A stretch of 64,000 bases of DNA from Myroides pelagicus (GTDB lineage: Bacteria > Bacteroidota > Bacteroidia > Flavobacteriales > Flavobacteriaceae), in NCBI RefSeq assembly GCF_009711055.1, contig NZ_WMJY01000005.1:24934-88933 (forward strand), read 5' to 3'. Each line of letters opens with the position of its first letter. The first letter of the stretch is position 1. Shown here piece by piece: positions 9,171 to 21,900 of the stretch. The translations under genes were made by a program, and so were the position numbers. The notes below the pieces were generated by a model, which saw nothing but the letters and a program-made list of their open reading frames with translations, was not told the origin of the DNA and ran no database searches.

Positions 9171-9187
9171 AAAAAATTACTTTTATT

Positions 9188-9219
9188 TTGTTTATTCCAA
9201 AAATTATTTAGGATATTTG
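9188..9219 (+). promoter_or_regulatory. Probable promoter of the methionine operon
   Basis: TTG (9188-9190), a 21-bp spacer and GATATTTG (9212-9219) match the -33/-7 consensus with one -7 mismatch. Transcription would start about 20 bp before the first leader peptide. No second promoter is obvious between the two leader units. Confidence 0.5.
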
Positions 9220-9244
9220 TACCAACGAAAACAAAGAAGAAAAA

Positions 9245-9316
9245 ATGAATACAGTTTATACAATGATGATGAGCATGATGATGTGGAGAAATCCGCAGGG
9301 CTTGTTATTTGCATAA
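9245..9316 (+). CDS. Methionine leader peptide 1
   Basis: A 23-codon frame encoding MNTVYTMMMSMMMWRNPQ then GLLFA and a TAA stop. Seven of 23 residues are Met, six of them in two runs of three (9263-9271 and 9275-9283), far beyond chance use. A purine-rich AAGAAGAAAAA precedes the ATG. The peptide itself probably has no function; its translation would sense Met-tRNA supply. A ribosome halted in the Met run leaves the last codons, from CAG at 9296, free to pair with the terminator arm. With ample methionine it runs to the stop and covers them. It lies upstream of the seven-gene methionine operon. Confidence 0.88.
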   Translation: MNTVYTMMMSMMMWRNPQGLLFA

Positions 9317-9371
9317 ACTTAAATTCTAAATAACATATATAAAGCCCTTGCATTTGCGAGGGCTTTTTTTT
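9297..9371 (+). promoter_or_regulatory. Met attenuator 1: antiterminator/terminator
   Basis: Terminator: AAAGCCCTTGC (9341-9351) pairs with GCGAGGGCTTT (9356-9366), 11 bp with one G-U pair, followed by nine T. Antiterminator: AGGGCTT at 9297-9303, inside the last codons of leader 1, is exactly complementary to AAGCCCT at 9342-9348, the 5' arm of the terminator. The two structures exclude each other, as attenuation requires. Confidence 0.85.
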
Positions 9372-9415
9372 TACACCAAACCAAACAGTATATAATTAGC
9401 AGAATATAGAATACC

Positions 9416-9508
9416 ATGATTTACAATACTAACACAATGATGATGGCAATGATGATGATGAACATGATGATGTTCACGACGCCCTATTGCCTAAAGTCAA
9501 CGAGTTAG
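9416..9508 (+). CDS. Methionine leader peptide 2
   Basis: A 30-codon frame beginning MIYNTNT, then MMM, Ala, MMMM, Asn, MMM, then FTTPYCLKSTS and a TAG stop. Eleven of 30 residues are Met, ten of them between codons 8 and 19. It starts about 45 bp after the T run of attenuator 1, so it is only transcribed when the first terminator is read through, unless an unseen promoter lies between. It shares the design of leader 1 (a short polar start with N, T and Y, then Met runs) but differs in length and 3' sequence, so it is an old duplication or a convergent second unit. Confidence 0.88.
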   Translation: MIYNTNTMMMAMMMMNMMMFTTPYCLKSTS

Positions 9509-9574
9509 TTATAATCTAAAACAAGAGATTAAAATACTTGAAGTCCTTTTGGCAATGCCGAAAGGGCTTTTTTT
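9445..9574 (+). promoter_or_regulatory. Met attenuator 2: regions 1 to 4 of a classical attenuator
   Basis: Terminator: AGTCCTTTTGGC (9542-9553) pairs with GCCGAAAGGGCT (9557-9568), 12 bp with two G-U pairs, followed by seven T. Antiterminator: attgcctaaag (9486-9496) pairs with cttttggcaat (9546-9556), 10 of 11 bases. A third pairing, ggcaat in the Met codons (9445-9450) with attgcc (9486-9491), would sequester the antiterminator when no ribosome is stalled. Together these are regions 1:2, 2:3 and 3:4 of the trp-type model. Confidence 0.85.
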
Positions 9575-9619
9575 ATGCCCAAAAATTAGTAACTAAAACA
9601 TTTAAAAAAATATTTAACC

Positions 9620-10894
9620 ATGAGCAATTTAAACTTTTCAACACAAGCATTACACGCAGGACACAATGTACAAGCAACAGCAGGAACAAGAGCAGTGCCT
9701 ATCTATCAGACATCATCGTATGTATTCGAAAATGCTGATCACGCAGCAGGAGCTTTTAACCTGTCTATCCCAGCGTATATCTACACAAGATTAAACAATC
9801 CTACAAACGATATTCTTGAGCAACGCTTAGCAGCACTAGAGGGAGGTATCGGAGCAGTAGTTACAGCATCAGGAGCATCTGCTATCTCTACTACGTTCTT
9901 GACATTGCTAAAAGCGGGAGATCACATCGTATCTTCTAACAGCTTATATGGAGGAACATACAACTTATTCAATGTTACACTCCCTCGTTTAGGTATCAAT
10001 ACTACATTCGTAGATCCATCTAATGTAGAGAACTTCAGAACGAATATTCAAGAAAACACAAAAGCAATATTCGTAGAAAGCTTAGGTAATCCAAAATTAG
10101 ATATCATCAACTTAAAAGCAGTTGCTAAGATAGCACAAGAGTTTAAAATTCCATTTATCGTAGATAATACAGTTGCCTCTCCTGCCCTACTCAACCCAAT
10201 CCAATACGGGGCAAACATCGTAGTACATTCCCTAACTAAATACATCACGGGTAATGGTACATCATTAGGAGGAGCGATAATCGACGCAGGTACTTTTGAT
10301 TGGTCAAGTGGAAGATTCCCAGAGTTTACAGAGCCTTCTCCAGGATACCATGGATTGATCTATCACCAAGCATTAGGTAACGCTGCTTTCATCGCTAAGA
10401 TCAGAGTAGAAGGATTAAGAGATCTAGGTGCAGCACTTAGCCCATTCAATGCCTTCCAAATCATCCAAGGGTTAGAGACTTTACCTATTCGTATCCAAAA
10501 ACACAGTGAGAATGCATTAGCCTTAGCAGAATGGTTAGAAAAACAAGACGCTGTAGCATGGGTAAACTATCCAGGTCTGAAGTCAAGTGACTACTACGAT
10601 TTAGCAAAAGAGTACTTGCCAAAAGGACAGAGTGGTGTAGTAACCTTTGGATTAAAAAAAGGATTCGAAGCAGCCAAAACAGTGGCAAATGATACTAAAC
10701 TATTCTCTCTCTTAGCAAACATAGGAGATACTAAGTCACTAATCATTCACCCCGCTTCTACTACACACCAACAATTAACCGTAGAGGAGCAAAAAGCAAC
10801 AGGAGTAGCACCAGACTTAATCAGACTATCCGTAGGAATAGAAAACATAGAAGACCTAAAAGCAGATTTAGCAAACGTATTTAAAACATTATAA
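9620..10894 (+). CDS. metY: O-acetylhomoserine sulfhydrylase (aminocarboxypropyltransferase)
   Basis: A 424-residue PLP enzyme of the Cys/Met metabolism family that joins sulfide to O-acetylhomoserine to give homocysteine. The PLP lysine is K207 in HSLTKYITGNG, the motif typical of MetY rather than MetB/MetC, and the length fits MetY. The N-terminus FSTQALHAGH is also typical. It is the first structural gene behind the two Met attenuators and is followed after 1 bp by the next PLP enzyme. Cysteine synthase side activity is known in the family; which substrate matters here cannot be seen. Confidence 0.95.
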   Translation: MSNLNFSTQALHAGHNVQATAGTRAVPIYQTSSYVFENADHAAGAFNLSIPAYIYTRLNNPTNDILEQRLAALEGGIGAVVTASGASAISTTFLTLLKAGDHIVSSNSLYGGTYNLFNVTLPRLGINTTFVDPSNVENFRTNIQENTKAIFVESLGNPKLDIINLKAVAKIAQEFKIPFIVDNTVASPALLNPIQYGANIVVHSLTKYITGNGTSLGGAIIDAGTFDWSSGRFPEFTEPSPGYHGLIYHQALGNAAFIAKIRVEGLRDLGAALSPFNAFQIIQGLETLPIRIQKHSENALALAEWLEKQDAVAWVNYPGLKSSDYYDLAKEYLPKGQSGVVTFGLKKGFEAAKTVANDTKLFSLLANIGDTKSLIIHPASTTHQQLTVEEQKATGVAPDLIRLSVGIENIEDLKADLANVFKTL

Positions 10895-10895
10895 G

Positions 10896-12035
10896 ATGAG
10901 TACCCAAACAGACATACTAAAACACATTCCGATAGACCCACACACAGGAGCCATAGCTGTACCAATCTATCAGACAACGACATTCGCTCAAGAGGCACCA
11001 GGAGTAAACAAGGGATTTGACTACACACGTACCAACAATCCTACTCGTCAAGCTTTAGAAGAATTAGTTGCTTCATTAGAAAACGGTGCGAAGGGCTTTG
11101 CCTTTGGAAGTGGACTTGCAGCAATAGATGCAGTATTCAAGACACTAAGCCAAGGAGACGAAGTTATAGCTGTAGCGAATATCTATGGTGGGACTTATAG
11201 GCTGCTAAATGAGGTGTATGCGAAGTTTGGGATAAAGACTCATTATGTTGATACAACAATAGTTGAAAATGTAGAAAAGGCAATTACTAATAATACTAAA
11301 CTAATCTGGATAGAAAGCCCTACTAACCCAACACTGAGAATATCTGATATACAAGCTATAGCAGACATTGCTAAAAAACACAAAGTTTGGTTATGCGTAG
11401 ACAACACCTTCGCTACACCGATAGCCCAAAAGCCATTAGACTTAGGAGCAGACCTTGTTGTTCACAGTGCTACGAAGTATATCGCGGGTCACTCAGATGT
11501 AGTGGCAGGGCTAGTAATCACGAAGACAGAGGAATTGGGTAAGATCATTAAGTTTCATCAGAACTCAACTGGGGCTATACTAAGTCCTTTCGACAGTTTC
11601 TTAACCATCAGAGGTATTGAAACCTTGCTACTGAGATATAAAGGATATTCTGAGAATGCCCTAAAAATGGCAGAATACCTCAACACTCATCCTAAGATAA
11701 ACAAGATATACTATCCAGGATTAGTGAATCACGAAGGACATGAGTTAGCAAAGAAGCAACAGAAGTACTTCGGCGGAGTAATAAGTTTTGACCTAAAAGA
11801 CAACAGTAAAGAAGCTGCTCTTAAGATTATCAAAAGCCTAAAGCTCTTTACGCTTACGGAAGGGCTTGGAGGAATAAAGAGTTTGAGTAATTACCCTTTT
11901 GAGATGTCTCATGGATCAGTACCTAAAGAGACAAAAATAAAAGCAGGAATAACGGAAAGCTTAATAAGATTGTCCATCGGATTAGAAGAAACAGAAGACT
12001 TGATAGAAGATATCAAACAAGCATTAGCACAATAA
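10896..12035 (+). CDS. Trans-sulfuration PLP enzyme (cystathionine gamma-synthase/beta-lyase type)
   Basis: A 379-residue paralogue of MetY in the Cys/Met PLP family. The PLP lysine is K194 in HSATKYIAGHSDVVAG, the motif of the MetB/MetC branch, and YTRTNNPTR is present. It either forms cystathionine from activated homoserine and cysteine or splits cystathionine to homocysteine; sequence alone does not decide, so no symbol is given. It starts 1 bp after the metY stop, implying translational coupling, and lies in the methionine operon. A lyase role would fit well, since metY and a metZ-like gene in the same operon already cover direct sulfhydrylation. Confidence 0.9.
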   Translation: MSTQTDILKHIPIDPHTGAIAVPIYQTTTFAQEAPGVNKGFDYTRTNNPTRQALEELVASLENGAKGFAFGSGLAAIDAVFKTLSQGDEVIAVANIYGGTYRLLNEVYAKFGIKTHYVDTTIVENVEKAITNNTKLIWIESPTNPTLRISDIQAIADIAKKHKVWLCVDNTFATPIAQKPLDLGADLVVHSATKYIAGHSDVVAGLVITKTEELGKIIKFHQNSTGAILSPFDSFLTIRGIETLLLRYKGYSENALKMAEYLNTHPKINKIYYPGLVNHEGHELAKKQQKYFGGVISFDLKDNSKEAALKIIKSLKLFTLTEGLGGIKSLSNYPFEMSHGSVPKETKIKAGITESLIRLSIGLEETEDLIEDIKQALAQ

Positions 12036-12051
12036 ATAACAATAGAATACC

Positions 12052-13017
12052 ATGAGTCACTTACAAGAAATAACTATCGCTAACCATACTTTGCCAAACG
12101 GAAGTACACATACTTTTCACTTTACTTATCAGGTGGAGGGACAGCCCTTACACAGTGCTCCAATCGTGTTGGTCAACCATGCCTTAACAGGAAATAGTGA
12201 AGTAGCCGGTGATAACGGATGGTGGAATAGCTTAGTGGGTTATGACAAAGTAATAGACCTCAACCGATATACAGTGATTGCCTTCGATATACCAGGTAAT
12301 GGATATAACAAAGAAGAGGCTCACCTCATCGAAGATTACAAAGCAATAACGACAAAAGTAGTTGCTGAAGTGTTCTGGAAAGCATTAGATCGACTACACA
12401 TTGATCACCTATATGCAATCATCGGAGGTAGCTTAGGAGGAAGCATCGCTTGGGAGATGACTTTCATTAGACCACAAGCAGTAGATCACTTAATCCCAAT
12501 AGCGACAAGTTGTAAAGCATCAGACTGGTTAATAGGCAATGCCTTAATCCAAGACAGCATTCTAAACAACTCTTCTCAACCTATAGAAGACGCTCGTATG
12601 CATGCTATGTTACTCTACCGCACTCCTGCATCGCTCCAGCAGAAGTTTGCCAATGGGTATAAAGAAAGTGAGAGTCAATACGCTATAGAAAGTTGGTTAA
12701 AGTATCACGGACAGACCTTAAATGGTCGCTTTAGCTTACAAGCTTACAAGTTAATGAACCACTTGCTAAAAACCATTGGACAAAAAGTAACAGAAGAAAG
12801 TCTAAAAACCTTCGGTCAACATACAAGTGCTAAGATACACTGCATCGCAGTAGATACGGATTATATGTTTACGAAGGCAGAACAAGAATACACAGTAGCT
12901 CTACTTAAAGACTATTGCAAACACATTACATACCAAGAGATTCAATCAATACACGGCCACGATGCCTTCTTAATTGAATACGAACAATTAAACAATTTAT
13001 TAAAACCATTATTCTAA
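12052..13017 (+). CDS. metX: Homoserine O-acyltransferase-like alpha/beta hydrolase
   Basis: A 321-residue alpha/beta-hydrolase of the MetX family, which activates homoserine with an acyl group from acyl-CoA. The nucleophile elbow GGSLGG places Ser127, VDTDYMF places Asp270 in the position of the usual SDxLFP, and GHDAFL places His303, giving a full triad. The nucleophile is preceded by GG as in MetX rather than GxSxG of generic hydrolases. At 321 residues it is shorter than typical MetX (350-380), mostly in the lid. Acetyl rather than succinyl specificity is inferred from the neighbouring metY. Confidence 0.88.
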   Translation: MSHLQEITIANHTLPNGSTHTFHFTYQVEGQPLHSAPIVLVNHALTGNSEVAGDNGWWNSLVGYDKVIDLNRYTVIAFDIPGNGYNKEEAHLIEDYKAITTKVVAEVFWKALDRLHIDHLYAIIGGSLGGSIAWEMTFIRPQAVDHLIPIATSCKASDWLIGNALIQDSILNNSSQPIEDARMHAMLLYRTPASLQQKFANGYKESESQYAIESWLKYHGQTLNGRFSLQAYKLMNHLLKTIGQKVTEESLKTFGQHTSAKIHCIAVDTDYMFTKAEQEYTVALLKDYCKHITYQEIQSIHGHDAFLIEYEQLNNLLKPLF

Positions 13018-13029
13018 AATCAGCACATC

Positions 13030-15432
13030 ATGAAAGTATTAAAGTTTGGAGGAAAATCTCTTGCATCAGGACAAGCTTTTGACAACGTCATAAATATCAT
13101 AAAAACAAAAGTAAACGAAGGGCCAATCGTTATTGTAGTTTCTGCTATAGGGGATACAACAGATACCCTTGAAAATATATTAGACTTAGCAAAGACTAAA
13201 CAAGATTACACGACTGCTTTTGAAACATTCAAAAACAGAGCATATCACAATGAAGCAGATATAAATACAGAGCTTGAAGTATTGAGCAAATTATATGAAG
13301 GAGTTTCTCTAATAGAAGACTATGGCGTAAAGATTAAAGACCAAGTGTTAGCACAAGGAGAACTAATATCAAGTAAAATATTAGCTGCTCAGCTAAACGC
13401 AAAAGGACTTAAAGCTACACCTGTAGACAGCCGTCAATTCTTTATCACAGATGCTAACTTCGGAAGTGCACAAGCTATAGAAGAAGTGTCTAAGCAAAAA
13501 ACACAAGCGTACTTTGCTGCATTAGATAAAGAAACTATAGCTGTAGTAACAGGGTTTATCGGATCTACAGATAAAGGAGAAACAACTACACTTGGACGCA
13601 ACGGTAGTAACTACTCTGCTGCTTTATTAGCGAACTTCATCGAAGCAGATGAATTGCAAAACTATACTCATGTAGATGGTATCTATACTGCTAACCCTGA
13701 TTGGGTAAAAAATGCACAGAAGATAGAAGAACTTCACTTCGACGAGGCAAATGAATTAGCCAACTTCGGAGCTTCTATCCTACATGCGAAAACAATATTG
13801 CCTTTAGTAGAGAATAATATTCCATTGAGAATATTAAACACACTAAACCCAGAAAACAAAGGAACTCTTATCTCTAACAAACCAACAGATAAGGGAATTA
13901 AGTCACTATCGGTACAGTCTAATGTCGCTTTAGTACAGTTCGAAGGTAGAGGATTGTTAGGAATCGTAGGAGTAGATGCACGTGTATTTACAGCTTTGGC
14001 AAACGAAGGAATTAGTGTAGGTGTTATCTCACAGGGTTCTTCAGAGCGTGGTTTAGGTTTTATCGTAGAAGAGAAAGATGCAGATAAAGCAGCCGAAGCA
14101 CTAAACAGAGAGTTCTCTAATGACTTCTATACGCGTGATGTAAACAGTATTTCTATCATCCGCGACCTTGCTGTTATTTCTATCATCGGACAGAACCTAA
14201 GCACATTTGACAAACCTTATGCTGCATTAGTAAAGAATAAGATTGTTCCTATCCTATTCAACAATACAGTAACAGGGAAAAACGTAAGCTTAGTCGTACG
14301 TAAAGAAGAAGCTAAGAAAGCACTTAACGTAGTACACGGACAGATATTCGGTATCGCTAAAAAGATCAATATCGCTGTCTTTGGAAACGGATTAGTAGGA
14401 GGTACTTTAATAGACCAAATATTACAGTCTGCCCAATCTATCGAAGACAAAAAGAACATTGCCCTAAGCATCTTCGCTATCGGTAACTCTAAAAAAGTAT
14501 TACTTAACGATGGAGGTATTAACTGCAACTGGAGAGAAGAGATAAAAGACCAAAGTGTAGCTTATAATATACAAGAAGTAATAGACTACGCGAATGCAAA
14601 TCACTTAGAGAACTTAATCGCGATAGACAACACGGCTTCTGGTGAATTTATCAAGAACTATATTCCATTAGTAGAGAATGGTTTTGACCTTATCTCTTCT
14701 AATAAAATTGCTAATACAATATCATATAGTTTCTATAATGAGTTGCGTCAGACGCTAAAGGCAAACCACAAAGAATACTTATACGAAACTAACGTAGGTG
14801 CCGGTTTACCATTGATTGATACGATTAAACTACTTCACTTATCAGGAGAGAATATCACTAAGATAAAAGGAGTGTTCTCGGGAAGTTTGAGTTACATTTT
14901 TAATAACTACTCTATCCAAGAAAAACCATTCAGTGAGGTACTTAAAGAAGCTATCACTAAAGGTTTTACAGAACCAGATCCACGTGAAGACCTATCAGGT
15001 AATGACGTTGGACGTAAGTTGTTAATCTTAGCGAGAGAACTAGACTTACAAAACGAGTTCGAAGAAATAAGCATTCAGAACTTAATCCCTACAGACTTAC
15101 AGGCAGTAGATACCCCGACGTTCTTAAACAGCTTAGAGAAACTAAATCCTTACTTCGACAAGATTAAACAAGGCTTAGCTCCAGATACTGTGTTACGCTA
15201 TGTAGGAGAGCTATCAGGTGATCTACAAAAGGACAAAGGAGTATTAGAAACTAAACTAATCGAAGTACCTACCAGCTCAGCATTAGGACAGCTAAAAGGC
15301 TCAGACAGTATATTCGAGATATACACAGAGAGCTACGGAGACAATCCTATCATTATCCAAGGAGCTGGTGCAGGAGCATCTGTAACTGCCAGAGGGGTAT
15401 TTGGAGATATACTGAGATTGGCGGATAAGTAG
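13030..15432 (+). CDS. thrA: Bifunctional aspartokinase / homoserine dehydrogenase
   Basis: An 800-residue fusion giving the first and third steps from aspartate to homoserine. The aspartokinase half opens with KFGGKS at residues 5-10 (the family usually has KFGGTS or KFGGSS, so the Lys is unusual). The central ACT regulatory region spans about 300-440, and the homoserine dehydrogenase half starts near 447 with the nucleotide-binding INIAVFGNGLVGG. The length matches E. coli ThrA/MetL (about 810-820). The operon context suggests it serves methionine like MetL, but the fold does not separate the two and thrA is used as the family name. A 143-bp gap with an inverted repeat follows. Confidence 0.93.
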   Translation: MKVLKFGGKSLASGQAFDNVINIIKTKVNEGPIVIVVSAIGDTTDTLENILDLAKTKQDYTTAFETFKNRAYHNEADINTELEVLSKLYEGVSLIEDYGVKIKDQVLAQGELISSKILAAQLNAKGLKATPVDSRQFFITDANFGSAQAIEEVSKQKTQAYFAALDKETIAVVTGFIGSTDKGETTTLGRNGSNYSAALLANFIEADELQNYTHVDGIYTANPDWVKNAQKIEELHFDEANELANFGASILHAKTILPLVENNIPLRILNTLNPENKGTLISNKPTDKGIKSLSVQSNVALVQFEGRGLLGIVGVDARVFTALANEGISVGVISQGSSERGLGFIVEEKDADKAAEALNREFSNDFYTRDVNSISIIRDLAVISIIGQNLSTFDKPYAALVKNKIVPILFNNTVTGKNVSLVVRKEEAKKALNVVHGQIFGIAKKINIAVFGNGLVGGTLIDQILQSAQSIEDKKNIALSIFAIGNSKKVLLNDGGINCNWREEIKDQSVAYNIQEVIDYANANHLENLIAIDNTASGEFIKNYIPLVENGFDLISSNKIANTISYSFYNELRQTLKANHKEYLYETNVGAGLPLIDTIKLLHLSGENITKIKGVFSGSLSYIFNNYSIQEKPFSEVLKEAITKGFTEPDPREDLSGNDVGRKLLILARELDLQNEFEEISIQNLIPTDLQAVDTPTFLNSLEKLNPYFDKIKQGLAPDTVLRYVGELSGDLQKDKGVLETKLIEVPTSSALGQLKGSDSIFEIYTESYGDNPIIIQGAGAGASVTARGVFGDILRLADK

Positions 15433-15436
15433 ATTG

Positions 15437-15566
15437 GTTTACGGTGGACGGCGGACAGCTTATACACCTGTAATCCGAAAAACGTAAGCTGCAAACCTCA
15501 AAAAGCATTATCACAGATTTACACCCAGTAATCAACGAAAAACACTAACCACTGCTAACCGTAAAC
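15437..15566. repeat. Inverted repeat of the gtttac type inside the operon
   Basis: gtttacggt (15437-15445) is perfectly complementary to accgtaaac (15558-15566), and an internal agctta/taagct pair lies within. The element fills most of the gap between the aspartokinase gene and the metZ-like gene. A related element follows metF at 21502-21564. No T run follows, so it is unlikely to terminate; it may be a repeat insertion or mRNA processing site. Confidence 0.6.
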
Positions 15567-15575
15567 TAAAAAAAG

Positions 15576-16769
15576 ATGAGTACATTAAACCATGATGAAG
15601 GCTTCTGTTTTGAGACACTAGCCATACGAACGCAAACAGAACGCACACAATATAGAGAACACTCAACTCCACTATTCCTAACTTCAAGCTTTGTCTTTGA
15701 CGATGCAGAAAATATGCGCGCTGTATTTGCGGAAGAAATAGAGCAATACTCCTATTCACGCTTTACTAACCCAAACCAAACAGAACTAGTTGATAAAATC
15801 TGTTTGTTTGAACAAGCAGAAGCAGGTTTCGCATTTGCAACTGGAATGGCCGCGGTGTATTGTAGTTTATTTCCTCTGTTAAAGACTGGAGATCACATTG
15901 TTTCTTGTTCTAATATCTTTGGTTCTACCAGAGGACTGTTTAGCAATTTGTTCCCTGAATGGGGAGTAGAAACAAGCTATTTCGATATAAATCAAGTATA
16001 TGATGTAGAAAAACTAATACAACCTAACACCAAGATACTATTTGCAGAAAGTCCTACTAATCCAGGAGTAGATGTATTAGACCTTGCGTACTTAGGAGAA
16101 ATAGCTAAGAAACACAACCTCCTATTTATCGTAGATAATACCTTCGCTACTCCTTATTTACAAACACCAATTACATTAGGAGCGCATATAGTGATACACT
16201 CAGGAACCAAACTCATTGATGGACAAGGACGAGTATGTGGAGGGATTACAGTAGGTTACAAAGAATATATCCATAAAATCTACTTATTCACACGTACTAC
16301 AGGCGCAAGCATTTCACCGTTCAATGCCTGGGTACTATCCAAAAGTCTCGAGACTTTAGCAGTACGTGTAGATAGACATTGTGAGAATGCCTTGATTATA
16401 GCAGAATACTTAGAACAACACCCTGCTGTGGAGTTTATCAAGTATCCTTTCTTGCCAAGTCATCCACAATATAAAATAGCAAAAAAACAAATGAGGCAAG
16501 GAGGTAATATTATCGCCTTTGGAATAAAAGGAGGACTTGATGCAGGTAGAACATTCTTAAATGCTGTAAAGCTTTGCAGCCGATCCGCTAACCTTGGAGA
16601 TAGTAGAACCATCGTTACACACCCTGCTTCTACCACACATAGTAAAGTTCCTGCAGAAGAAAAAGTAGCTACGGGTATTACAGACAACCTGATTCGTCTA
16701 TCTGTAGGTTTAGAAAATACAAAAGATATTATCCGTGACTTAGAACAAGCCTTAGCTGTTACACAATAA
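15576..16769 (+). CDS. metZ: O-succinylhomoserine sulfhydrylase-like PLP enzyme
   Basis: A 397-residue third member of the Cys/Met PLP family in this operon. The PLP lysine K212 sits in HSGTKLIDGQGRVCGG, whose DGQGRV stretch is the hallmark of MetZ. The N-terminus (FETLAIRTQTERTQYREHSTPLFLTSSF) also fits MetZ. It would make homocysteine from an acylated homoserine and sulfide, overlapping the role of metY; whether it uses acetyl or succinyl esters is not visible. The gene follows the gtttac repeat and precedes metH by 48 bp. Confidence 0.88.
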   Translation: MSTLNHDEGFCFETLAIRTQTERTQYREHSTPLFLTSSFVFDDAENMRAVFAEEIEQYSYSRFTNPNQTELVDKICLFEQAEAGFAFATGMAAVYCSLFPLLKTGDHIVSCSNIFGSTRGLFSNLFPEWGVETSYFDINQVYDVEKLIQPNTKILFAESPTNPGVDVLDLAYLGEIAKKHNLLFIVDNTFATPYLQTPITLGAHIVIHSGTKLIDGQGRVCGGITVGYKEYIHKIYLFTRTTGASISPFNAWVLSKSLETLAVRVDRHCENALIIAEYLEQHPAVEFIKYPFLPSHPQYKIAKKQMRQGGNIIAFGIKGGLDAGRTFLNAVKLCSRSANLGDSRTIVTHPASTTHSKVPAEEKVATGITDNLIRLSVGLENTKDIIRDLEQALAVTQ

Positions 16770-16817
16770 CAAGCCTACTAATCACACCTCAACAATGAAT
16801 GATTAAATAAATAGATT

Positions 16818-19800
16818 ATGTCAACAACACTTATACATACTGATATCAGAAGCCTATTAAAACAACGAACATTAGTACTCGATGGAGCAATGGGTACAAT
16901 GCTTCAGGCTTACCGATTTTCAGAAGAAGACTTTAGAGGTGAGCGCTTTGCTGATTTTGCTCACCCTCTAAAGGGAAATAACGACTTGTTGTCAATCACT
17001 CAACCTGAGGCTGTAAAAGAAGTACACAGACAATATCTTTTGGCAGGAGCTGATATCTTATCTACAAATACCTTCTCAGGTACCACCATTGCAATGGCGG
17101 ATTACCACTTAGAAGATTTAGTATATGAATTAAACTATCAGTCGGCTAAGATAGCACGCGAAGTAGCAGACGAAGTAGAGTCGCTTAACCCTGACAAACC
17201 TCGCTATGTAGCAGGTGCTATTGGACCTACGAATAAAACAGCTAGCTTATCTCCTGATGTAAACAACCCTGGGTACCGCGCCATAACATTTGAAGAACTA
17301 CGCATTGCTTATAAGCAGCAAGCTGAAGCTCTATTAGATGGAGGAGCAGACTTATTATTAGTCGAAACAATATTTGACACCTTGAATGCAAAAGCAGCCT
17401 TATTTGCCATCGATGAAATACAGTCAGAACGAGGGATAGATATTCCTATTATGATTTCTGGAACAATAACTGATGCCTCGGGACGCACCCTGTCAGGACA
17501 AACAGTAGAAGCTTTCTTGATTTCTATTGCGCATATACCTTTATTGAGCATCGGGTTCAACTGTGCCTTAGGAGCAGAACAACTAGAACCTTATGTAAAA
17601 CAATTAAGTCAACACGCAGCAGTGAATATTTCTGCCCATCCGAATGCAGGTTTACCTAATGCCTTTGGAGAATACGACCAGACACCTAATGAAATGAAAG
17701 AACTAATAGACAGCTTTTTAAGTCAAAACTTAGTTCAAATCATCGGAGGTTGTTGTGGGACGACACCAGAGCACATCAGACTAATTGTACAAGCAGTAGC
17801 AGAGCATGCAAAAAATAGAACTACTAAGCAGTACAACCTAAAGCCTGTACTTGCCTTATCGGGATTAGAACCCTTATACGTTACTGCTGAAGTAAACTTT
17901 ATCAACGTAGGTGAACGTACTAATGTAACAGGTTCTCGTAAATTCCTTCGCTTGATAAAAGAAGAGCAATTTGATGAAGCTCTTGCCATCGCAAGAGAAC
18001 AAGTAGAAGGAGGTGCTCAAATTATTGATGTCAACATGGACGAAGGTTTATTAGACGGTGTACACTGTATGACTAACTTTCTCAACTTGATTGCCTCAGA
18101 GCCAGATATTGCTAAAGTGCCTATCATGATAGATAGCTCTAAATGGGAGATTATCGAAGCAGGACTACGTGTAGTACAGGGTAAAGCGATTGTAAATTCA
18201 ATTAGTTTAAAAGAAGGTGAAGCCATATTCATCGAGCACGCTAAACTAATCAAACGCTATGGAGCTGCTACAGTAGTGATGGCATTTGACGAGAATGGAC
18301 AAGCGGACTCTTTAGCAAGACGCATAGAAATATGCTCACGCTCTTATAATATATTAGTCAATCAAGTGAACTTTGCTCCTCAGGATATCATCTTTGATCC
18401 GAATATATTTCCTGTAGCGACAGGAATGGAAGAACACAACAACAATGCTTTAGACTTCTTTCAAGCGACTAAATGGATTAGAGAAAATCTTCCCTATGCC
18501 AATGTAAGTGGTGGGGTAAGTAATGTTTCTTTTTCTTTTAGAGGAAACAATAAAGTAAGAGAAGCTATGCACGCTGCCTTCTTATACCACGCGATACAGC
18601 ACGGTATGAATATGGGAATAGTGAACCCTGAGATGTTAGAAGTCTATGATGAGGTGGACAAAGATTTGATGGAACACGTAGAAGACGTCCTATTAAACAG
18701 ACGCGCTGATGCAACGGAACGTTTACTTGACTTTGCAGAGAGTATTAAAAATGACAATACCAATCAGACAAGCGAAACTAAAGTTGAAGAATGGCGTTCG
18801 GGGAGTATCCAAGATAGACTTACTCATGCTTTAGTCAAAGGAATAGAGACCTTTATTGAACAAGATACTGAAGAAGCTCGTCTTAGTGTACCACAACCTA
18901 TTCAAGTGATCGAACAATATTTAATGAACGGAATGAACGTAGTCGGTGACTTATTTGGAGCAGGTAAGATGTTCTTGCCACAAGTAGTGAAATCTGCTCG
19001 TGTGATGAAGAAAGCAGTAGCCTATCTCTTACCTTTTATCGAAGAGAGCAAAAAGCAGAATGCAGAAACCTCTGTCGGTAATGCCGGTAAGATATTAATG
19101 GCTACGGTAAGAGGTGATGTACACGACATTGGTAAAAACATTGTGGCTGTAGTCTTAGCCTGTAATAATTATGAGATTATAGACCTTGGAGTGATGGTGC
19201 CACCTGAAAAGATTATAGAAACTGCTATTAAAGAACAAGTTGACATCATCGGACTAAGTGGTTTAATTACTCCCTCTTTAGATGAGATGGTACACTTAGC
19301 AAAAGAACTAGACAAGGTCAATAGCCGTATTCCTATCATGATTGGTGGAGCTACTACCTCACGTGTTCATACCGCTGTTAAGATTGCACCGGAGTATAAG
19401 AACTGTGTCGTACACGTACACGATGCTTCCCGATCGGTAACGATTGCTAATCAACTATTACAAAAAGAAGTTGAAGTTAGCTTTAAAGAGAATATCAAAG
19501 CGGAATATGACCAACTGAGAAATGACTATTTAGGTAGAGCTAGAGATAAAAGCTATATCACTATAGAACAAGCTAGAGCAAATAAAGTGAAAGTTGAATG
19601 GGATACAAAAGACATTGTCAAACCTAACTTCATTGGAACGAAGAAAGTTACTGTCGAACTAGACGAGTTACTGCCTTTTATTGATTGGGCACCTTTCTTT
19701 CGCTCTTGGCAACTATTCGGTAAGTTTCCTGAGATATTGACAGATGAGGTAGTAGGGCAAACAGCAACTCAAGTATATGACGATGCTATAATAATGCTTG

Positions 19801-20549
19801 ACAAAATCATCAATGAACGTTGGTTCGACGCAAAAGGTGTCTTAGGCATCTTCCCTGCGAATCAAGTAAACGACGATAATATTGAAGTGTACAACGAACA
19901 GGGGGAGGTATTAGACCACTTATTAACACTGCGTCAACAATCACTGAAGAATGTCAAAGCTCCTAATATTGCCTTAGCAGACTTTATCGCACCCAAAGAA
20001 AGTGGATTAGAAGATTACATCGGGCTATTTGCCGTTTCTACTGGTTTTGGAGTTGACGAAATTGCCAAGCGATACGAAGACGACCTTGACGATTACAATG
20101 CAATAATGGTTAAAGCATTAGCCGACCGTCTAGTTGAAGCCTTCGCCGAATTACTACACCATCGTGTACGTACAGATATTTGGGGATATGCCTCTGCAGA
20201 ACGCCTAACGAACGAAGAGCTGATTAAAGAAAGTTATCAAGGGATCCGTCCAGCACCAGGTTATCCTGCATGTCCTGACCATTTAGAGAAAGGAACTATC
20301 TGGAAACTCCTACAAGTGGAAGAACAAATAGGAGTCACGCTTACAGAAAGCTATGCAATGTTTCCAGCAGCCTCTGTCTCGGGATACTACTTCGCTCATC
20401 CACAGAGTAGATACTTTGGATTAGGAAAAATAGGTCAAGATCAATTAGAAGACTACGCCAATAGAAGAAATATAACATTAGAAGAAGCTGAGCGTTGGTT
20501 ATCACCCAACTTAGCACAGAACAATAAATTAACAACAAGCGAATCATGA
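16818..20549 (+). CDS. metH: Cobalamin-dependent methionine synthase
   Basis: Full-length 1243-residue MetH (E. coli 1227), which transfers a methyl group from methyltetrahydrofolate to homocysteine. The Zn/homocysteine ligands are C249, C312 and C313 (FNCALG and GGCCGTT). The pterin domain follows ([10 protein letters not shown]), then the cobalamin domain with DVHDIGKN and the B12-ligating His769, then the SAM-dependent activation domain ([12 protein letters not shown]). All modules are in one chain. The 4-bp ATGA overlap with metF implies coupled translation. The enzyme needs B12; no B12 riboswitch is seen here and control appears to be at the leader. Confidence 0.98.
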
Positions 20550-21502
20550 AAGTAACAGAACATATCCAAAGAGCAAATGGTAAAACACAATTCTCTTTTG
20601 AAATCTTACCTCCTTTAAAAGGACAAAACATTCGAGGAATATTTGATGCTATTGAACCGCTAATGGAGTTCAAACCACCTTTCATTGACGTTACCTATCA
20701 CCGAGAAGAGTATGAGTACAAAGAGGCAGGCAATGGTCTATGGGAAAAGCGAACCGTTAGAAAAAGACCTGGTACTGTTGGTATTTGTTCAGCTATACAG
20801 AACAGATTTAAAGTAGATGCTATACCCCATATTTTGTGTGGAGGCTTCACCAAAGAAGACACTGAAAACTTCCTAATTGACCTTGATTTCTTAGGCATAG
20901 ACAACGTCGTAGCCTTACGAGGTGATGCTGTAAAGAATGAAACATACTTCAAGGCTGAAGCTAAAGGCAATAAATATGCTTCTGAATTAGTTACACAAAT
21001 CACGGAACTAAACCAAGGTATCTACTTAGACCCTGAATTAGAAAACACCAGTAAGACTGACTTCTGCGTTGGCGTAGCAGGCTATCCAGAAAAACACATG
21101 GAAGCACCCAATTTCGATACAGATCTTAAATATCTAAAACAAAAGATAGAAAACGGAGCAGAATACATCGTTACTCAAATGTTTTTTGACAACAGTAAGT
21201 TCTTTGAGTTTGTGGACAAATGTAGGTCCATAGGTATCGATGTGCCTATCATCCCAGGATTAAAACCATTAGCTACCCTAAACCAACTAAACCTGTTACC
21301 TCAACGTTTTAAAGTTGACTTGCCAGATGACTTAGTTGCTGAGGTGTTAAAAGCAAAAGACAATGCTGCCATCCGAGAAATAGGAATAGAATGGTGCGCT
21401 CAACAGTCCAAAGAGCTTATCGTGGCGGGTATTCCTATTGTTCACTACTACTCTATGGGAAAATCTGATAATATCATTCAAATTATCAAGAAAGCAATTT
21501 AG
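20546..21502 (+). CDS. metF: 5,10-methylenetetrahydrofolate reductase
   Basis: A 318-residue flavin enzyme that supplies methyltetrahydrofolate for MetH. The TIM-barrel starts [11 protein letters not shown], with the catalytic Glu in that motif, then VALRGD, the [12 protein letters not shown] stretch and [11 protein letters not shown], all typical. The length is normal for the bacterial form without the eukaryotic regulatory domain. The start codon overlaps the metH stop. It is the last gene of the operon; an inverted repeat and the terminator at 21606 follow. Confidence 0.97.
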
Positions 21503-21564
21503 TTTATAGTGAACGGTTTACAGTTTACAGACTAACTGTTGACCGTAAGCTGTGAACCATAAAC
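21502..21564. repeat. Long imperfect hairpin of the gtttac type after metF
   Basis: The stretch from gtttat (21502) to ataaac (21559-21564) folds on itself with many matches along about 30 bp (gtttat, then gt, then ttacag/ctgtaa-like blocks). Its units resemble those at 15437-15566. It overlaps the last base of the metF stop codon and precedes the operon terminator. Confidence 0.6.
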
Positions 21565-21605
21565 CCGAATCCATAACTATTATTTATAAATTTTTGGTTG
21601 CAATC

Positions 21606-21636
21606 AAGACCTCTTATATACACGATAAGAGGTCTT
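21606..21636 (+). terminator. Terminator of the methionine operon
   Basis: A perfect 11-bp stem aagacctctta (21606-21616) with taagaggtctt (21626-21636) has a 9-nt loop and is followed by ttatttat. It is the first strong terminator after the attenuators, about 12 kb downstream of metY. Confidence 0.85.
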
Positions 21637-21900
21637 TTATTTATACATCTATAATCAACCTTGACAATCAAAACCTATTCATTTTGATTATCAAACAACT
21701 TTGTCGATCATATTCAATTTTTTTTGATTGACAAACTTGTCATTTTAGTACATTTATTTCAAATTATATAGTCTCTACTCTAATAAATATAGGAAGAGTA
21801 TGAACAACGGACTTTGGTAAAAGATTGAGAACTTTCAAATCTTAATAGTATCTAACTACATGTAAACACTTTAAACATCATTATCGCGTTATATAGTAAA
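21637..21900. other. AT-rich spacer with tgattgacaa-like repeats
   Basis: Between the operon terminator and the next gene lies an AT-rich region with several similar short words (gacaatcaaaa, ttttgattatc, ttgattgacaaac), two of which form an imperfect inverted pair around 21660-21695. These may be degenerate operator half-sites, but I could not define a site. Confidence 0.3.

Follow-up and report, generated by a model that had tools for sequence, protein, structure and literature searches.

Introduction

The enterobacterial trp, his, leu, thr and ilv leaders are ribosome-mediated attenuators. For the sulfur amino acids, a metL leader with clustered Met and Cys codons (CMCRRMC) lies before metNIQ in Streptomyces lividans (PMC8079986), and Cys leader peptides have been described in Mycobacterium, Propionibacterium and Bifidobacterium, with nothing for methionine (PMC1262725). 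Bacteroidota have their own promoter type. In Bacteroides thetaiotaomicron, leader-like sORFs occur in long 5' UTRs (PMC7366714), and a Bacteroid-trp motif is given in a table row of PMC2864571. Bacteroid-trp involves a leader peptide. In F. psychrophilum, 'strong clues' for leader-peptide attenuation upstream of amino-acid operons have been presented (PMC9723704, reportedly Guerin et al. 2021); methionine is not mentioned anywhere in that paper's main text. The words bacteroid- and flavobacter- are absent from the main text of PMC2965389. Methionine genes are also preceded by riboswitches, of which SAM-I and SAM-II bind SAM directly, and MetJ is a gammaproteobacterial repressor. In the open-access literature, searched without supplements, we found no methionine leader-peptide attenuator in Bacteroidota and no serial leader-peptide attenuators.

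Results

Two methionine-rich leaders precede a probable seven-gene met operon

The window analyzed here is a 64,000-nucleotide stretch of Myroides pelagicus DNA, and all coordinates are positions within it. The region 9188-9619, between an ORF matching TrmN (below cut-off) and metY, contains two Met-rich frames in tandem (9245-9316 and 9416-9508), each followed by an intrinsic terminator. The features of this region and of the genes downstream are as follows.

9187..9219, + strand: candidate promoter, TTTG, 21 nt, GATATTTG; 9/10 to the Bacteroidota consensus; motif only, no RNA data
9245..9316, + strand: leader peptide 1, MNTVYTMMMSMMMWRNPQGLLFA, 7 Met in 23 codons; conserved in Myroides-type loci
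9253..9319, + strand: 1:2 (protector) helix of unit 1, arms 9253-9263 / 9309-9319; predicted fold, window only
9297..9348, + strand: predicted 2:3 antiterminator of unit 1, arms 9297-9302/9343-9348 and 9303-9311/9327-9335; stepwise folding, covariation
9341..9372, + strand: 3:4 intrinsic terminator 1 with U tract, hairpin 9341-9366 and T run; folding, terminator scan
9416..9508, + strand: leader peptide 2, MIYNTNTMMMAMMMMNMMMFTTPYCLKSTS, 11 Met in 30 codons; conserved in Myroides-type loci
9445..9491, + strand: 1:2 helix of unit 2, arms 9445-9451 / 9485-9491; predicted fold, window only
9484..9557, + strand: predicted 2:3 antiterminator of unit 2, core arms 9484-9496 / 9546-9557; stepwise folding, covariation
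9540..9576, + strand: 3:4 intrinsic terminator 2 with U tract, hairpin 9540-9570 and T run; folding, terminator scan, alignment
9620..10894, + strand: metY, O-acetylhomoserine/O-acetylserine sulfhydrylase (TIGR01326, 628 bits, cut-off 495)
10896..12035, + strand: cystathionine gamma-lyase/synthase family (best match PRK07671, below cut-off)
12052..13017, + strand: metX-like acyltransferase (below cut-off)
13030..15432, + strand: thrA, aspartokinase/homoserine dehydrogenase (PRK09436, above cut-off)
15576..16769, + strand: metZ-like sulfhydrylase (below cut-off)
16818..20549, + strand: metH, methionine synthase (PRK09490 and TIGR02082, above cut-off)
20546..21502, + strand: metF, methylenetetrahydrofolate reductase (TIGR00676, above cut-off)
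21606..21636, + strand: terminator-like hairpin 3' of metF, likely operon end (terminator scan)

An earlier note, made from the sequence alone, had claimed two such frames with 7 Met of 23 and 11 Met of 30 codons, each with a terminator, before seven met genes; this held in the ORF list, the terminator scan and the predicted folds. Two terminator-like hairpins were found in 801 bases on both strands, compared with 0.4 ± 0.6 in shuffled sequences, and the predicted folds of 9188-9375 (z -4.6) and 9376-9580 (z -5.2) were each more stable than 200/200 shuffles. In the whole 64 kb, both strands included, only four rows combined a short ORF bearing a single-amino-acid run with a nearby terminator: leaders 1 and 2 were the only Met cases, and the other two ORFs, both on the minus strand, had an Ile run and a Leu run, respectively. 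The pattern ATGATGATGNNNATGATG had four forward and no reverse matches in the 3.34 Mb genome, three of them inside the two leaders and the fourth in a different frame within an 841-aa ORF, which we take to be topA from its sequence. Two criteria for a ribosome-mediated attenuator are met, as inferred from the sequence alone: there is a short leader ORF with clustered codons of the pathway end product, and an intrinsic terminator separates the leader ORF from the first gene.

The gaps between the seven met genes were at most 143 nt, the largest being that between thrA and metZ. Within 10880-21900, a scan which left out most of the metY gene, the plus strand had one weak terminator match inside thrA and one good match after metF (21606-21636). 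We infer that the seven genes form one transcript. The MetY protein of the window is 98% identical to those of Myroides albus, M. odoratimimus, M. indicus and a Flavobacteriaceae MAG.

Both units are predicted to fold as classical attenuators

Stepwise folding was carried out with the RNA free or with parts of the leader masked, and the two units behaved alike. When no ribosome was present, the 1:2 helix formed; when the Met run was masked, the RNA up to arm 3 adopted the 2:3 antiterminator; and when the mask extended through the stop codon, the 3:4 terminator alone formed. A 1:2 protector or pause hairpin over the control codons was predicted for both units, in the window only. As predicted by the model, both units fold as classical attenuators with mutually exclusive 1:2, 2:3 and 3:4 helices, and a further attenuator criterion is met in these folds: the antiterminator is exclusive with the terminator, and its 5' arm is reachable from the end of the leader. 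The full-length minimum-energy fold retained the terminator even with the Met run masked; we therefore infer that the antiterminator must win by forming earlier, as is usual for this class of attenuator.

The leader-1 promoter motif suggests serial action on one transcript

The Bacteroidota promoter consensus is TTTG/TAnnTTTG. Before leader 1, the best match to this motif averaged 9.1/10 (shuffled, 7.3) in 39 type-1 regions, window included, and 37 of the 39 scored at least 9/10. Before leader 2, the mean was 7.6/10 against 7.2 in shuffled sequences (n=29), and no match of 8 or more was present between the two leaders in the window. As a background, 31 positions on the + strand of the whole window scored at least 9. 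Because the motif precedes leader 1 and not leader 2, both units probably act in series on one transcript. A single transcript spanning both units is the likeliest arrangement, although this rests on the motif only, without RNA data. If the units are independent, the leakage would be the product of two read-through rates, which is an inference.

Leader-terminator units are conserved upstream of metY in relatives

Named records were searched with an alignment built from 14 MetY sequences; of 579 confirmed stretches, the best 80 were used as the named-locus set. A unit was scored automatically when a Met/Cys-rich leader and a terminator lay within 1,000 nt upstream of metY. By this rule, 63 of the 80 loci had at least one unit: 28 had both, 10 had type 1 only, 25 had type 2 only, and 17 had none (11 Aquimarina, 3 Leeuwenhoekiella, 2 MAGs and L108). 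Inspection by eye showed that the rule missed the first leader in F. psychrophilum (L100) and the second terminator in L136, and that L108 has a visible leader-like ORF and terminator. The single genome without a Met/Cys-rich ORF upstream of metY, among the 17 non-Myroides genomes with full-length MetY, was G025.

The Met/Cys-rich ORFs were concentrated before metY. Among 5,593 ATG-initiated ORFs of 15-45 aa on both strands of the 80 loci, 72 had a Met+Cys fraction of at least 0.28, and 64 of these 72 lay in sense, no more than 1,100 nt upstream of metY. All Met positions of both leaders were kept in the four closest loci (L067-L070). The spacing between stop codon and terminator was 16-36 nt for type 1 and 20-46 nt for type 2. 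Beyond the Met/Cys codons and segment 2, the leader peptides were not conserved. Differences at codon positions 1, 2 and 3 numbered 143/169/177 and 547/950/812, without a purifying pattern, and the coding-constraint test was uninformative.

Several loci had other layouts. In L096, L014, L016 and L017, a second Cys/Met ORF follows unit 1 and a second terminator was not seen; unit 2 may be decaying there or may act on translation. L113 has an extra Met/Cys-rich short ORF (MQQLDTIKVTICKAKTMMMCIYAMMCICIY) starting 2,806 nt after the metY start, possibly the leader of another cluster gene. L073 and L074 have a leader resembling type 1 (MKLTVCNMMSCMMPELSAETLL) at 3.7-3.8 kb upstream of metY, well upstream of the type-2 unit; either an insertion of genes may have separated the units, or unit 1 may serve another gene. 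L052 (G030) carries tandem metY-metX copies in one cluster, with tandem leaders at the second metY. Two MAGs labelled Chitinophagales and Bacteroidetes OLB9 (L093, L137) have metY with tandem leaders and terminators like those of Myroides, at 77-79% MetY identity, which could reflect transfer or mislabelled bins.

The antiterminator and terminator arms co-vary

In both units the antiterminator arm lies at the end of the leader ORF. The unit 1 arm is often CCGCAGAGG-like, which accounts for the recurring leader-1 peptide ends ..PQG, ..PQR and ..SAE; the unit 2 arm is often GCCAAAAG-like, hence the recurring leader-2 end ..CQK. Co-varying arm pairs included GCAGAG/CTCTGC, AGGGCTT/AAGCCCT, GCAGCG/CGCTGC and TGTGGG/CCCACA in unit 1, and GCCAAAAG/CTTTTGGT, CTGAAA/TTTCAG and CCGGAG/TTCCGG in unit 2. 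When arms were re-paired at random among species, the native mean duplex energy was reached in 0/5,000 cases for type 1 (28 distinct arms) and in 0/5,000 for type 2 (20 arms). With segment 2 extended past the stop codon, it was reached by 0/10,000 re-pairings for both types; on a coarser helix score, 4/10,000 type-2 re-pairings equalled the native arms. For 4 of the 28 type-1 arms (L106, L107, L110, L117), the best ungapped helix was only 4 bp or lay outside the expected segment. These permutation counts cannot be read as probabilities, since the rows come from related, non-independent sequences.

Only alignment A3 (52 rows, window included) was used for counting pairs; the type-1 alignment, A2, has register shifts in arm 3, and for type 1 the re-pairing test was used instead. 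On A3, the type-2 antiterminator had 89.6% of its cells paired, compared with 36.9-68.9% when slid by 1-2 columns, and 9 cells were changed on both sides versus 3.0 ± 1.5 in shuffles. The number of antiterminator pairs with a both-side change on A3 was 3, which is not above shuffles (168/500 reach 3). The terminator was 93.8% paired on A3, with 6 pairs changed on both sides and 28 both-side-changed cells versus 5.3 ± 1.8 in shuffles. In L095 and L138, where the stop codon comes earlier, RNA segment 2 is retained outside the ORF, as an RNA role predicts.

Most relatives' leaders contain Met and Cys codons, and SAM-I lies within their met clusters

Cys made up at least one quarter of the leaders' Met+Cys codons in 55 of the 63 loci, e.g. 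MKTIAKRNMMCCEMMQMCIPICCCQK. The eight loci below this share were five Myroides-type loci, L093, L125 and L141. We infer that the leaders of most relatives likely read both Met and Cys, and that an almost Met-only leader is the Myroides state.

Of the 60 genomes searched, 42 had SAM-I and 52 had SAM-II; SAM-I was present in all 17 non-Myroides genomes with full-length MetY and an upstream region examined. No SAM-I match was obtained in the three Myroides-like genomes (G000, G018, G020) by a filtered scan which loses some weak matches, and a purpose-built SAM-I model had no match in the window. The SAM_alpha family (RF00521) had no match in any sequence, controls included, and thus carries no weight either way. 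G000 has a single SAM-II match, located on contig C24 where a gene reading as metK begins. Among 64 named loci, the fetched flank contained SAM-I in 51, each time in sense, downstream of metY and inside the met cluster; in G000, G018 and G020, the genes continue from metY without an intervening SAM-I. Since SAM-I was not found in the Myroides-like genomes but lies inside the relatives' met cluster, the leader pair appears to have taken over control of the whole pathway with the loss of SAM-I.

The Cys share of the leaders averaged 0.20 without a SAM-I in the fetched flank (n=13) and 0.46 with one (n=50; Mann-Whitney p 1.6e-4), the range among loci with SAM-I being 0.25-0.60. This comparison is confounded by ancestry (5 of the 13 are Myroides-type) and by truncated loci (L100, L115), has a counterexample in L137 (0.52), and serves as a lead only. 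CysK scored above cut-off in 3/3 Met-only genomes (G000, G018, G020) versus 5/17 others with full-length MetY. This hints at an association of Met-only leaders with a dedicated cysteine synthase, but there are five counterexamples and the ancestry is shared. CysD scored 395.0 bits in G000, just under the cut-off of 396.6, with no match in G018 or G020.

In L053, L054 and similar Flavobacterium clusters, cysD (sulfate assimilation) lies between metZ and metH in the met cluster, and L053 and L054 have a second SAM-I before metH. Flavo-1 RNA (RF01705) occurs near SAM-I in met clusters (L054:18882-18957, L053:18208-18283, L107:5915-6005).

Related leaders extend to the class level

At the class level, 68 of 296 genomes had MetY at E <= 1e-130 (G000 included). 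Leaving out G000, three genomes of the same genus and two with an unplaced gene start, and adding G050 from the order-level set, gave 63 loci. A Met/Cys-dense ORF (at least 5 Met/Cys in 10 codons) was present in the 500 bases upstream of metY in 33/63 loci in sense and 1/63 in antisense. Two leaders, each with a terminator, were again found in L159, L174, L180 and L194. Among 10 units from distant families, the 2:3 pairing was convincing in five (no more than 10/300 shuffles as strong) and not in the other five (41-170/300).

Many other class-level loci have longer Cys-run or Cys/Met-run ORFs upstream of metY, with the run often right at the stop codon (e.g. ..CICMCCCCC) and a terminator that is absent or doubtful. 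They are listed below.

Terminator-poor Cys-run ORF loci: L160-L164, L176, L178, L184-L188, L190, L193, L195, L196, L198, L199, L204, L206-L211

Such terminator-less ORFs may represent a second type, based on translation or on Rho.

Alternative explanations

The alternative that survives best is that only one unit works, the other being a relic or a constitutive terminator, so that there is no serial logic. In its favor, the automatic rule found relatives with a single unit (10 with type 1 only, 25 with type 2 only), and leader 2 stands alone in M. odoratus (L071). However, the two units of the window both retain a Met run, an antiterminator and a terminator, both units are kept in 28/80 named loci by the rule, and the rule undercounted the units in some single-unit loci (leader 1 of L100, terminator 2 of L136). 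We consider this alternative unlikely.

A second alternative is that the nascent Met-rich peptide itself is sensed, for example through exit-tunnel arrest induced by S-adenosylmethionine or methionine, rather than the charging of Met-tRNA. Arrest peptides responding to small molecules exist (TnaC), and SAM-I was not found in the Myroides-like lineage. On the other hand, no peptide motif is conserved besides the Met/Cys codons and the end encoding segment 2, the intervening residues vary, unlike in arrest peptides, and Met and Cys codons interchange across lineages. There is thus little to recommend this reading.

It is also hard to maintain that the frames are two independent Met/Cys-rich small genes, perhaps metal-binding, with their own terminators and simply located before metY. 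Met/Cys-rich peptides can bind copper. Against this, 64/72 of the dense ORFs are found a short way upstream of metY and in sense, co-varying complementary RNA links the end of the peptide to the terminator, the RNA segment is kept outside the ORF when the stop comes earlier (L095, L138), and the promoter motif before leader 2 is not above background.

A last possibility, that the region houses an already described methionine riboregulator such as a SAM riboswitch or T-box and that its Met runs are a coincidence, can practically be ruled out for the families in Rfam 15: SAM-I and SAM-II are common in the genomes searched (42/60 and 52/60), but the Rfam matches in the window at the gathering threshold are tRNAs only, G000, G018 and G020 had no SAM-I match in the filtered scan, and the SAM-II of G000 is elsewhere, at metK.

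As candidates upstream of the operon, the SAM riboswitches (SAM-I, RF00162; SAM-II, RF01726) did not meet their criterion, with no aptamer match in the window, and neither did a T-box, with no match in the window at the gathering threshold. The Rfam search of the window, with all families at that threshold, returned no riboswitch and no T-box.

Discussion

Taken together, the results make it very likely that the region upstream of metY contains two ribosome-mediated transcription attenuators, serial on one transcript, which sense charged elongator Met-tRNA. The basis shown in silico consists of the anatomy, the exclusive pairings, the covariation, the promoter motif before leader 1 only and the conservation; there are no transcript, ribosome or methionine data, and transcription, translation, Met sensing and multiplicative leakage of the leader pair are inferred. 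We propose that when Met-tRNA is plentiful, the ribosome would pass the Met run to the stop codon and cover segment 2, and the 3:4 terminator would form. When Met-tRNA is scarce, the ribosome would stall within the Met run, segments 2 and 3 would pair, and RNA polymerase would continue. In the absence of a ribosome, 1:2 would sequester segment 2 and the terminator would form. The metY gene and the six genes following it would be transcribed only after the polymerase has passed both units.

The earlier note had read the region as methionine leader-peptide attenuation, and this is supported in silico, with the response to methionine only inferred. A lack of Met runs or stems in relatives would have refuted that reading; instead, the relatives show conservation or covariation of the Met or Met/Cys runs, of the stems and of the antiterminator pairing. 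The note's serial action is supported by the promoter motif before leader 1 only, and its multiplied leakage remains an inference. Three points need amendment: the leaders of most relatives are for Met and Cys, Met-only being the Myroides state; the leader system is widespread; and leader-peptide attenuation had already been hinted at in Bacteroidota, namely in F. psychrophilum (PMC9723704), methionine not being named in the main text.

If the proposed attenuators operate, methionine synthesis would be controlled by tRNA charging read twice, from which a steep, low-leak switch is expected. Classical leader-peptide attenuation would also be widespread in a phylum where little of it has been described, and dozens of small ORFs would gain a function. 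The relatives, which differ in leader codons (Cys, Cys+Met or Met), in unit number (one or two) and in whether they have SAM-I, provide a natural series for asking why attenuators double and how one RNA sensor replaces another. A bolder reading, which to us seems as apt to fail as to hold, is that serial Met/Cys attenuators are a general controller of metY across the class, with a specificity shifting freely among Cys, Cys+Met and Met. The Myroides pair would then have turned Met-only and captured the seven-gene pathway as the cluster SAM-I was lost, a tandem sensor of tRNA charging replacing a riboswitch.

Among the known systems, SAM-I and SAM-II are likewise located upstream of methionine/SAM genes, within the same pathway and genus; they differ in having no leader peptide, and SAM-I was not found in the three Myroides-like genomes. 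The B. thetaiotaomicron sORFs (PMC7366714) and Bacteroid-trp (PMC2864571) share control by RNA or small ORFs in Bacteroidota and, as described there, do not concern methionine. The actinobacterial Cys leaders (PMC1262725) also consist of a short ORF with Cys runs ahead of genes for sulfur amino acids, and resemble the terminator-less poly-Cys ORFs at the class level. They contain Cys only, with runs near the stop codon and no conserved terminator hairpin found. The S. lividans metL (PMC8079986) is also a leader peptide with clustered Met (and Cys) before methionine genes, but it is reported with a leaderless transcript and no typical Rho-independent terminator, has one leader, and belongs to a transporter operon in Actinobacteria. 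The F. psychrophilum attenuators (PMC9723704) are from the same bacterial family, and the locus of this species (L100) carries both units; the main text of that study has no methionine operon, although its supplement (Table S7, appendices) may already list the metY leader. With the enterobacterial attenuators, the Myroides units share the short ORF rich in the regulated amino acid, the intrinsic terminator and the exclusive 1:2/2:3/3:4 pairings; they differ in reading Met (or Met+Cys), in forming two complete units in series and in occurring in Bacteroidota. The device is likely a variant of the known one, ribosome-mediated attenuation; its mode of action is well supported in silico, and its response to methionine is inferred.
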